From Streptomyces misionensis (lineage in GTDB: Bacteria; Actinomycetota; Actinomycetes; Streptomycetales; Streptomycetaceae), in assembly GCF_900104815.1 (NCBI RefSeq), contig NZ_FNTD01000004.1, positions 2,992,501 to 3,056,500 of the forward strand: DNA of 64,000 nucleotides, given 5' to 3'. Shown piece by piece: positions 22,980 to 29,611 of the stretch. The translations under genes were made by a program, and so were the position numbers. Below the pieces are notes generated by a model. It made no database searches. It had not been told where the DNA came from and was given only the letters and a program-made list of their open reading frames with translations. Position 1 is the stretch's first letter, and the number at the start of each line of letters is the position of its first letter.

Positions 22980-25241
<2,262 letters not shown>

Positions 25242-25270
25242 AGTTGGGCCACAAGTCCCCCTAGAGACGG

Positions 25271-25307
25271 GCGCGAGCCTCACATAAGCTCTTCACAAGG
25301 CTCGCGC
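25271..25307 (+). terminator. Hairpin downstream of copA
   Basis: GCGCGAGCCT (25271-25280) pairs perfectly with AGGCTCGCGC (25298-25307) and is followed by ATCTTCCTT. It begins 30 bases past the copA stop and probably ends the copper operon transcript. Confidence 0.65.
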
Positions 25308-25318
25308 ATCTTCCTTAC

Positions 25319-25352
25319 GCAAGGGCTCCGTTCGCCATAACGGGGCTCTTGC
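25319..25352. terminator. Second hairpin in the copA-citA gap
   Basis: Fourteen-base arms (25319-25332 and 25339-25352) pair at 12 or more positions, counting G-U, around a CGCCAT loop. It sits 11 bases after the first hairpin, with AAAAGG following. It may be a tandem terminator or the start of a separate structured RNA. Confidence 0.45.
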
Positions 25353-25510
25353 GCATCAAAAGGACATATGCAAGAGACGCAGATCACAGTGATGTGAACG
25401 TAACCATCGAAGGGGTTCGAAGGTCTAAGTTGGCGATGTCGGATCGGCGTCTTGGGGGGCGCTGACCCGGCATCTGGGGATGTCTTGGGGGACTTCCCCG
25501 GAGATGCGTT

Positions 25511-25568
25511 GCCGGGGCACGTACACCGGGAAGCTTTGAGCGGCCCTCCCGGCGTGCGATGTCCCGGC
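25511..25568. ncRNA. Branched RNA fold in the copA-citA gap
   Basis: A 9-bp outer stem (25511-25519 with 25560-25568, one G-U) encloses a second stem CCGGGA/TCCCGG (25526-25531 with 25547-25552) and a small GCT-TTG-AGC tip. It lies in an intergenic region with no credible reading frame and is part of a run of hairpins continuing to 25704. Strand and transcript ends are undetermined. Confidence 0.4.
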
Positions 25569-25590
25569 AGACCGCACCGACAGCGATTCA

Positions 25591-25704
25591 GGCGCTGTCC
25601 TCTCGAGCGCCCGGCCCGGATCCCGTGGGGGGAATCCGCACCGGGACATGGGAAGGCGCCCTGGTCGCCGGCCCGTGGGGGGACCGGCGTCTCAGGGCGC
25701 CTTC
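25591..25704. ncRNA. Candidate structured RNA: two hairpins with identical 12-nt loops
   Basis: Hairpin A has outer stem CCCGG/CCGGG (25610-25614, 25641-25645), inner stem CGGAT/ATCCG (25617-25621, 25634-25638) and loop 25622-25633. Hairpin B has a 12-bp outer stem (25652-25663, 25693-25704), inner stem GCCGG/CCGGC (25667-25671, 25684-25688) and loop 25672-25683. Both loops are CCCGTGGGGGGA on the plus strand, which is TCCCCCCACGGG on the minus strand. A third small hairpin lies at 25591-25611. Two stem-loops with C6 loops match the published description of actinobacterial 6C RNA if read on the minus strand. On the plus strand, hairpin B followed by TTCTTG looks like a terminator. From memory, an S. 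coelicolor small RNA named scr2736 was reported near citA. This link is unverified. Confidence 0.55.
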
Positions 25705-25751
25705 TTCTTGTGCGCGTCGGGACCGGTGGCGTCAAGGCCGCCGGAACACTT

Positions 25752-25779
25752 CAGGGCCCGCCCTCGCGGGCAGGCCCTG
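25752..25779. other. Hairpin between citA terminator and the structured RNA
   Basis: CAGGGCC (25752-25758) pairs with GGCCCTG (25773-25779), with an inner CCC/GGG pair around TCGC. It is a further stable stem in the 628-bp gap. It may be a back-up terminator for citA. Confidence 0.45.
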
Positions 25780-25830
25780 GGAGCCGCTGCGCTCAGCGCT
25801 CCCCAACGGTGCGCGCGGCGCGGGCCGCCG

Positions 25831-25858
25831 AAAAGGGGGCACCGGATGCGGCGCCCCC
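25831..25858 (-). terminator. citA terminator
   Basis: On the minus strand, GGGGGCGCC pairs with GGTGCCCCC (one wobble) around a six-base loop and is followed by T4 (25834-25831). It starts 11 bases past the citA stop codon. Confidence 0.82.
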
Positions 25859-25869
25859 ACCGGCAGGTG

Positions 25870-27159
<1,290 letters not shown>

Positions 27160-27337
27160 GTCTTCCCTCACCGACGTAGTGCCTCATCTTCGAGGTGCCC
27201 TGACTGTCTCTACCATCCCCCATTTGGCTCAGGAGAGTGCACTCGGGGTCGACCATTGGGCCTATTGGCGGCACTCAGTGCCGCCAACCTGCTCATCCTG
27301 CCCCCTCGGAGAGGCATCTGGAAGTGCTCTGTGACCT

Positions 27338-29611
27338 TCACGACTCATTTGATCGATCATTTTTCGCGATGAGCCGGAAGTCCAGTGCCGTACACCGCCG
27401 TCCGGCCGACACCGTGCGCACCGCCTGGCCGATCGCCCGGCGCGAACCGACCAGCACGACCAGCCGTTTGGCCCGGGTGACGGCGGTGTAGAGCAGGTTC
27501 CGCTGGAGCATCATCCATGCTCCCGTGGTGACGGGAATCACCACGGCGGGATATTCACTTCCCTGCGAGCGATGGATGGTCACCGCGTACGCGTGCGCCA
27601 GTTCGTCCAGTTCGTCGTATTCGTACGGGACCTCCTCGTCCTCGTCCGTCAGCACCGTCAGGCGCTGGTCGACCGGATCGAGCGCGGTGACGACGCCCAC
27701 GGTGCCGTTGAACACACCGTTCTTCCCTTTTTCGTAATTGTTCCTGATCTGGGTCACCTTGTCGCCGACCCGGAAGACCCGCCCGCCGAACCGCTTCTCG
27801 GGCACGTCGGGCCGCCCCGGCGTGATGGCCTGCTGGAGCAGCCCGTTGAGGGTGCCGGCCCCGGCGGGCCCCCGGTGCATCGGCGCGAGCACCTGCACGT
27901 CGCGGCGCGGATCGAGCCCGAACCGCGCCGGGATGCGCCGCGCCGCCACGTCCACGGTGAGCCGTCCGGCCTCCTCCGTGTCGTCCTCCACGAAGAGGAA
28001 GAAGTCCTTCAGCCCGTCGGTGAGCGGAGGCCGCCCGGCGTTGATCCGGTGCGCGTTGGTGACCACACCGGACTGCTGGGCCTGCCGGAAGACCCGGGTG
28101 AGCCGGACGGCGGGGACGGGGCTGCCGTCGGCGAGCATGTCCCGCAGCACCTCGCCGGCACCGACGCTGGGCAGCTGGTCGACGTCCCCGACGAAGAGCA
28201 GGTGCGCGCCGGGCGGCACGGCCTTGACGAGCTTGTTGGCGAGCAGCAGGTCCAGCATGGACGCCTCGTCCACGACGACGAGGTCCGCGTCGAGCGGCCG
28301 GTCCCGGTCGTACGCCGCGTCTCCCCCGGGCTTCAGCTCCAGCAGCCGGTGCACGGTGGACGCCTCCGCCCCGGTCAGCTCGGCCAGCCGCTTGGCGGCC
28401 CGCCCGGTCGGCGCGGCGAGCAGCACCTTGGCCCGCTTGGCCCGGGCCAGCTCCACGATCGAGCGCACGGTGAAGGACTTGCCGCAGCCGGGGCCGCCGG
28501 TGAGCACGGCGACCTTCCTGGTGAGCGCCAGCCGGACCGCCGCCTCCTGCTCGGGCGCGAGGTCCGCGCCGGTACGGGTCCGCAGCCAGCCGAGGGCCTT
28601 CGCCCAGTCCACGTCCTGGAAGCCGGGCATGCGGTCCTGGTCGGTGCGCAGGAGGCGCAGCAGCTGGGCGGAGAGGGAGATCTCGGCGCGGTGGAAGGGC
28701 ACGAGGTAGACGGCGGTGACGGGCTCGGTGCCGTCGGGGCCGGGCACCTTCTCGCGCACCACCCCGGGGTCGGTGCCGTCCTCCGGCTCCCGGGCCAGCT
28801 CGGCGAGGCATTCGATGACGAGCCCGGTGTCGACCTGGAGCAGCTTGACCGCGTCGGCGATCAGCCGCTCCTCGGGCAGGAAGCAGTTGCCCTGGTCGGC
28901 GGATTGCGAGAGGGCGTACTGGAGACCGGCCTTGACGCGCTCCGGGCTGTCGTGGGGGATGCCGACGGACTGGGCGATCTTGTCGGCGGTGAGGAACCCG
29001 ATGCCCCAGACGTCGGCGGCGAGCCGGTAGGGGTTCTTCTTGACGACGTCGATCGAGTCGTCGCCGTACTTCTTGTAGATCCGCACGGCGATGGAGGTGG
29101 ACACCTCGACGGTCTGGAGGAAGAGCATGACCTCCTTGATCGCCTTCTGCTCCTCCCAGGCGTCGGCGATCTTCCTGGTCCGCTTGGGCCCGAGCCCCGG
29201 CACCTCGATCAGCCGCTCGGGCTCCTCCTCGATGATGCGCAGGGTGTCCAGGCCGAAGTGCCGGGTGATCCGGTCGGCGAAGACGGGACCGATCCCCTTG
29301 ACGAGCCCGGAGCCCAGGTAGCGCCGCATGCCCTGGACGGTGGCGGGCAGCAGGGTCGAGTAGTTCTCGACCAGGAACTGCTTGCCGTACTGCGGGTGCG
29401 TGCCCCAGCGCCCCTCCATCCGCAGGGACTCCCCCACCTGGGCGCCGAGCAACGCGCCGACGACGGTGAGCAGTTCCGCGCCGCCTCTTCCGGTGTCCAC
29501 CCGGGCGACGGTGTACCCGCTCTCCTCGTTGGCGTACGTGATCCGCTCCAGCACACCTTCGAGCACGGCCGTCCGCCGCTCACCGGCCTGGGTCCCCGCC
29601 TGTCGAACCAT
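27338..29611 (-). CDS. RecD2-like ATP-dependent DNA helicase
   Basis: This 757-residue superfamily 1B 5'-3' helicase is of the RecD2 (YrrC) type, which works without RecBC. It has an N-terminal OB-like region (VLEGVLERITYANEESGYTVARV) and helix-hairpin-helix motifs (GSGLVKGIGPVFADRI, VPGLGPKRTRKI). The helicase core has Walker A LTGGPGCGKSFT, DEASM in VVVDEASMLDLLL, GDVDQLPSVGAGEVL and the C-terminal YAVTIHRSQGSEYPAVVIP with LLYTAVTRAK. ATG 29611 has no good ribosome site, so leaderless or coupled translation is possible. Confidence 0.9.
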   Translation of the reverse strand: MVRQAGTQAGERRTAVLEGVLERITYANEESGYTVARVDTGRGGAELLTVVGALLGAQVGESLRMEGRWGTHPQYGKQFLVENYSTLLPATVQGMRRYLGSGLVKGIGPVFADRITRHFGLDTLRIIEEEPERLIEVPGLGPKRTRKIADAWEEQKAIKEVMLFLQTVEVSTSIAVRIYKKYGDDSIDVVKKNPYRLAADVWGIGFLTADKIAQSVGIPHDSPERVKAGLQYALSQSADQGNCFLPEERLIADAVKLLQVDTGLVIECLAELAREPEDGTDPGVVREKVPGPDGTEPVTAVYLVPFHRAEISLSAQLLRLLRTDQDRMPGFQDVDWAKALGWLRTRTGADLAPEQEAAVRLALTRKVAVLTGGPGCGKSFTVRSIVELARAKRAKVLLAAPTGRAAKRLAELTGAEASTVHRLLELKPGGDAAYDRDRPLDADLVVVDEASMLDLLLANKLVKAVPPGAHLLFVGDVDQLPSVGAGEVLRDMLADGSPVPAVRLTRVFRQAQQSGVVTNAHRINAGRPPLTDGLKDFFLFVEDDTEEAGRLTVDVAARRIPARFGLDPRRDVQVLAPMHRGPAGAGTLNGLLQQAITPGRPDVPEKRFGGRVFRVGDKVTQIRNNYEKGKNGVFNGTVGVVTALDPVDQRLTVLTDEDEEVPYEYDELDELAHAYAVTIHRSQGSEYPAVVIPVTTGAWMMLQRNLLYTAVTRAKRLVVLVGSRRAIGQAVRTVSAGRRCTALDFRLIAKNDRSNES

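Follow-up and report, generated by a model that had tools for sequence, protein, structure and literature searches.

The window analysed here, the whole 64-kb stretch of Streptomyces misionensis DNA (64,000 nucleotides), contains a gap between a copA-like gene and a convergent citA-like gene in which two hairpins stand side by side (Table 1). All Rfam families were searched against the window, and the sole match above threshold was RF02831 (Scr2736) at 25608..25672 on the plus strand. In this covariance-model search the match scored 90 bits against a cut-off of 43 and covered all 64 model positions. The twin hairpins are the tail of the Scr2736 RNA, read on the plus strand, and agree with RF02831 in sequence, strand and position. 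The name Scr2736 is presumably tied to the citA neighbour (SCO2736-type), and the convergent citA match lies beside the element, as expected beside a citA gene of this type. Weaker rows near the element, for mir-2830 (32.1 and 23.9 bits; cut-off 70) and flg-Rhizobiales (15.5 bits; cut-off 55), were dismissed as chance.

The Scr2736 family is already catalogued, though little studied, and the additions made here are its boundaries, its promoter and the idea that it acts as a decoy. The 64-nt RF02831 model stops at the first base of tip B, and the 5' domain, the promoter and the second tip of the element fall outside it; the Rfam entry is truncated relative to the predicted full-length RNA. Expression of Scr2736 in S. 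coelicolor was confirmed by Vockenhuber et al., as cited in PMC8388888, and the same article gives S. ambofaciens sRNA #10 as the Scr2736 homologue. PMC8079986 gives RF02831 in S. lividans as 'not transcribed' for the conditions it tested. The available text of the literature found by the name scr2736 or the accession RF02831 describes no tested function for this RNA.

Table 1 Features of the Scr2736 locus. Positions are those of the window; a dot marks a feature given without a strand.
Feature	Position	Strand	Basis and remarks
copA-like gene, upstream context	22980..25241	+	Open reading frame; gene name from the first-pass annotation
Crp-like site AGAGACGCAGATCACA (nGAGA-N6-TCACA)	25373..25388	.	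Putative Crp site
ECF-type promoter GTAACC-N17-GTCTAA	25400..25428	+	Fixed spacing in relatives; layout of published sigma-E sites
Scr2736, predicted full length	25435..25709	+	z -7.63; conservation; start predicted from promoter and fold
5' hairpin H1	25435..25474	+	Fold; tip UUGGGG; partly variable in relatives
Hairpin H2	25475..25500	+	GUCUUGGGGGAC; near-invariant tip; stem with many pair types (178 distinct sequences)
Long stem with conserved AGCUUUGAGCGGCCC hairpin	25505..25569	+	Conservation and predicted pairing
Hairpin A	25610..25645	+	Tip CCCGUGGGGGGA at 25622-25633
Hairpin B	25652..25706	+	Tip CCCGUGGGGGGA at 25672-25683; terminator-like
citA-like gene, convergent context	25870..27171	-	Open reading frame; gene name from the first-pass annotation

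The first-pass annotation, made from the letters of the window, had described two adjacent hairpins, A and B, with one and the same 12-mer on both, and both observations hold. The 12-mer CCCGTGGGGGGA has two copies in the 8.47-Mb genome, both of them here and at hairpin tips; its backward-read control has three copies in the same genome. The 12-mer had been called a loop, and it is indeed identical in the two hairpins but not open over its length: in the predicted fold its CCC and GGG pair with each other, so that GUGGG and a single, largely unpaired A remain. The plus strand of the predicted RNA (25435-25709) folds at -176.4 kcal/mol, compared with -138.6 kcal/mol (sd 4.95) for dinucleotide shuffles (z -7.63). 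Together with the covarying stem of hairpin B and the invariant tip described below, this value upholds the proposal of a structured RNA. The leftward strand of the same stretch also folds well (z -6.70), with predicted loops of 6 nt and part of the C run paired, which does not bear out the suggestion that each minus-strand loop exposes six cytosines.

Read rightward, the element ends as had been proposed, in a terminator-like hairpin: hairpin B is GC-rich and is followed by TTCTTCTT. The stretch 25591-25704, to which the element had been assigned, is included in it but does not give its limits, since the conserved RNA reaches back to about 25435 and the element as a whole, control region included, to 25373. 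Sequence comparison supports a Scr2736 RNA of about 275 nt, which would start near 25435 and end at hairpin B, the latter probably doubling as the terminator. The 5' domain (approximately 25435-25569) comprises two further hairpins with G-rich tips and a long stem. A palindrome-like sequence, CAGCGATTCAGGCGCTG, lies at 25580-25598 in the linker before hairpin A and is present in part of the genus only.

Upstream of the RNA, the pattern GTAACC-N17-GTC was found in 148 of 155 sequences, and in 182 of 191 distinct stretches. The site has the layout AAC-N17-nGTCT of sigma-E promoters, and the published sigma-E promoters in Table 1 of PMC6767563 show the same arrangement. A sigma-E matrix was built from 44 of the 91 published sites (PMC6767563); on it the window site scored 11.1 bits, a value exceeded by 41 of the 44 training sites, and ranked 12 in the window. 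SCO2735 and SCO2736 are absent from the main text of both sigma-E papers, and Scr2736 is not among the sRNAs named in one of them. Because of this moderate score and the lack of mention in the sigma-E papers, the promoter is called ECF-type, with sigma-E as just a candidate. The exact pattern GTAACC-N17-GTCTAA has one other copy genome-wide, which precedes an LCP-family (LytR-CpsA-Psr) gene (L190, 1501-1529); when one mismatch was allowed, five sites were found, against two for the control.

The promoter is itself preceded by a putative Crp site. Its TCACA end lies 11 nt upstream of the -35-like GTAACC in 192 of 201 loci, and in 190 of those 192 the left half nGAGA stands six bases before TCACA. 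The remaining nine loci comprise two odd regular-expression matches (one of them in genome G076) and seven without the site, two of which are cut by contig ends. For these counts, own-genome elements fetched twice and two overlapping copies in G076 were skipped; the 201 loci represent 191 distinct stretches, some genomes being present twice from two collections. The form TGTGA-N6-TCACA occurs in G071, G076 and G157, the G076 copy at the distance of 11 nt. The Crp motif of S. coelicolor is quoted as GTG(N)6GNCAC in PMC10033298; compared with it, the window site differs at two letters and the G076 site at one, and the sites of G157 and G071 fit.

The RF02831 model matched all 37 same-genus genomes searched and none of 24 from other families. 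A model of hairpins A and B was built from 50 sequences, and at E <= 0.001 it matched 199 of 297 genomes of the family, in 10 of 17 genera; it matched 132 of 132 genomes of the same genus and none among 15 genomes drawn from two further families of the order. Both exact tips were read in nine genera, nine being counted instead of ten because genus g16 (L238) had no twin tips when read. A laxer search (E <= 0.01) of 29 chosen genomes gave matches in 18, several of them weak. A pattern scan of named genomes, in which tip A belonged to the search pattern and loci can repeat a genome, returned at least 118 loci, and among the 80 listed, 78 are titled Streptomyces. The records of L069 (Microtetraspora glauca) and L118 (Kitasatospora aureofaciens) carry a Streptomyces-type 20-mer, and their labels may be misassigned. 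The surroundings are also shared: of 154 loci, 146 have a convergent citA match on the downstream side and 122 have a copA match on the upstream side; some of the rest are cut by contig ends.

All 37 genomes retrieved by means of the Rfam model, which stops before tip B, had both tips as the 11-mer CCCGTGGGGGG. Tip B was exact in 153 of 154 loci, the remaining locus being cut by a contig end, and two exact tips were found in all 30 loci kept from the family search with the model of hairpins A and B, best-scoring loci only. Around these tips the stems change. Hairpin B has 22 pairs, and in a set of 50 sequences both partners are changed in 10 of them. The double-change cells number 79 against 28.1 in shuffles, a value that none of 500 shuffles equalled; further pair types in this hairpin are unexceptional, the value being reached by 73 of 500 shuffles. 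The stem of H2 likewise covaries round its near-constant tip GUCUUGGGGGAC (178 distinct sequences). Hairpin A is nearly invariable within the genus; in other genera its stem is one pair shorter with the tip kept, and L227 has C-G for A-U. Selection on the tip, as suggested at the outset, agrees with this record of an invariant tip in relatives and a covarying stem B.

The number of tips was counted in 206 loci, of which 197 have two. Three tips are present in L233 (G071) and L079, in each case through an extra copy of hairpin A, and six identical tips in G076, which has three tandem modules of hairpins A and B and enters the count three times through three loci (L234, L243 and L245). Four loci have one exact tip: L091, which is cut, and L237, L239 and L242, in which the second tip is altered. 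G157 and G296 seem, by eye, to have no 5' domain, and have kept two G-rich tips, the second altered. In G163, hairpins A and B occur a second time in degenerate form (L242), and the upstream promoter pattern was not found at that copy.

The C runs on the minus strand had led the first-pass annotation to suggest a possible 6C homologue or paralogue transcribed leftward. The minus strand does hold two hairpins with C runs, and the 6C RNA (RF01066) and Scr2736 are alike in having two hairpins, each tipped by a homopolymer run. However, a covariance-model check of the surrounding 3.5 kb (24000-27500) gave nothing for RF01066 even at E <= 10; the curated match is to another family on the other strand, where the excess of G-U pairs also lies; and the genome has a separate 6C match elsewhere, at 43.4 bits, below the 47-bit cut-off. 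A 6C RNA has two stem-loops with at least six cytosines each on the transcribed strand, and the plus-strand tips here are G-rich. Taken together, a leftward 6C homologue is highly improbable.

Rightward transcription is favoured because G-U cells outnumber A-C cells in hairpin B (96 against 13). The 5' part gave 1290 G-U and 147 A-C cells in 178 distinct sequences; the size of such an excess is biased toward G-U because the counted structures come from plus-strand folds, and its direction agrees with the Rfam strand and the promoter. The 6C label is wrong for this element. The runs are of C in 6C and of G in Scr2736, so that the loops of 6C are complementary to the tips of Scr2736, and this complementarity is the interesting part.

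We tentatively propose, as a reading with a fair share of doubt, that Scr2736 is a multivalent decoy whose constant G-rich tips capture a constant partner. Its hairpins would offer two tips of the UUGGGG type and two of the type CCCGUGGGGGGA. The tips are taken to be the working parts because they stay constant while the stems change, and a constant tip would therefore imply a partner that is constant across the family, either 6C or a protein. The rise in tip number to three (G071, L079) and six (G076) counts in favour of a decoy. The near-invariance of hairpin A in the genus, the S. lividans entry and the energy needed to open the tips, given below, weigh against it. The promoter and the Crp-like site would couple it to an ECF sigma factor and to cAMP-Crp. 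A likeness can be drawn to decoys of the CsrB/RsmZ type, in which identical tip motifs also sit on different stems in copy numbers that differ between lineages. A second likeness is to Spot 42 and other CRP-controlled enterobacterial sRNAs, whose genes likewise have a CRP-like site at the promoter; the promoter of Scr2736 is by contrast ECF-type, and no relation is claimed.

The same tips could serve other functions. Scr2736 might be an ordinary trans-acting sRNA whose G-rich tips pair with C-rich stretches near mRNA starts and so alter translation. Some UCCCCCCAC sites do directly precede start codons, among them one before the gene for a solute-binding lipoprotein (L286) and one before a GH25-like gene (L304; function assigned by eye), and fabH is given as a predicted target of the S. 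ambofaciens homologue (PMC8388888). Nevertheless, UCCCCCCAC is not enriched: the backward control has 82 sites and UCCCCCCAC has 49, of which two are the element's own antisense. Two of eight displayed relatives retain the L286 site and one of 17 retains the L305 site (one cut; 17 of 24 loci of this type displayed), whereas the tips do not drift. Such a role is possible but on the unlikely side. Exact complementarity was also tried as a means of finding mRNA targets and was rejected, the complement being neither enriched nor conserved.

Alternatively, the tips may be binding sites for an RNA-binding protein that Scr2736 would titrate or deliver, by analogy with CsrA, which CsrB-type RNAs titrate or deliver. 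The whole 12-mer is constant, including CCC, GUG and the last A, which exceeds the needs of a G-run seed, and tips have been multiplied in some lineages; we know of no candidate protein, and regard this reading as rather doubtful. It is very unlikely that the block serves chiefly as a strong terminator for two convergent genes and has no regulatory partner. Hairpin B, with its high GC content, its place between convergent genes and the TTCTTCTT after it, would suit such a role, but termination has no need of an invariant tip, and conservation also covers the structured 5' domain and the promoter-like block, even in loci without a copA match.

If the preferred reading of Scr2736 as a decoy is carried further, an RNA-binding protein is one alternative for the partner, and the first RNA candidate would be 6C, both loops of which carry UCCCCCC, the complement of GGGGGGA. 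Contact would start loop to loop and then open the short CCC:GGG cap. Matches to 6C were found in 35 of 37 genomes of the genus (15 above the cut-off) and in 24 of 24 genomes of the family (18 above it). Both 6C loops contain UCCCCCC at all 31 loci of the genus and at 24 of the 25 loci of the family; the one departure is a second 6C copy in G061, and the main copy has the motif in 24 of 24 family genomes. The 6C RNA is equally constant in genomes without a detected Scr2736, so its pairing with Scr2736 has no phylogenetic support, and co-variation of the two RNAs is uninformative because 6C does not vary.

Opening the two 6C sites was predicted to cost 0.0 and 0.2 kcal/mol, and opening the seven sites in the window, two of which are the antisense of the element, at least 1.1 kcal/mol. 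Of the 49 UCCCCCCAC sites, 30 were tested for opening energy, and three of these 30, elsewhere in the genome, cost 0.0 to 0.3 kcal/mol, so 6C is not unique in opening easily. The Scr2736 tips would cost 7.7 and 8.5 kcal/mol to open, against 14.3 kcal/mol gained. An ECF- and cAMP-controlled sponge for 6C, in which two to six tips make several kissing contacts with the C-rich loops of 6C and tip number tunes free 6C in a two-RNA circuit of the Streptomycetaceae, is speculative and, in our estimate, unlikely. Were 6C the partner, a widely conserved actinobacterial sRNA would gain a dedicated antagonist whose strength could be read from the number of tips. More generally, Scr2736 is represented in Rfam by a 64-nt fragment, and its boundaries, promoter, operator-like site and constant or extra tips turn the identity of the tip partner into a testable question. 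Weak second 6C matches were seen in L273 (G157) and L275 (G067), and these resemble terminator hairpins with C6 tips.
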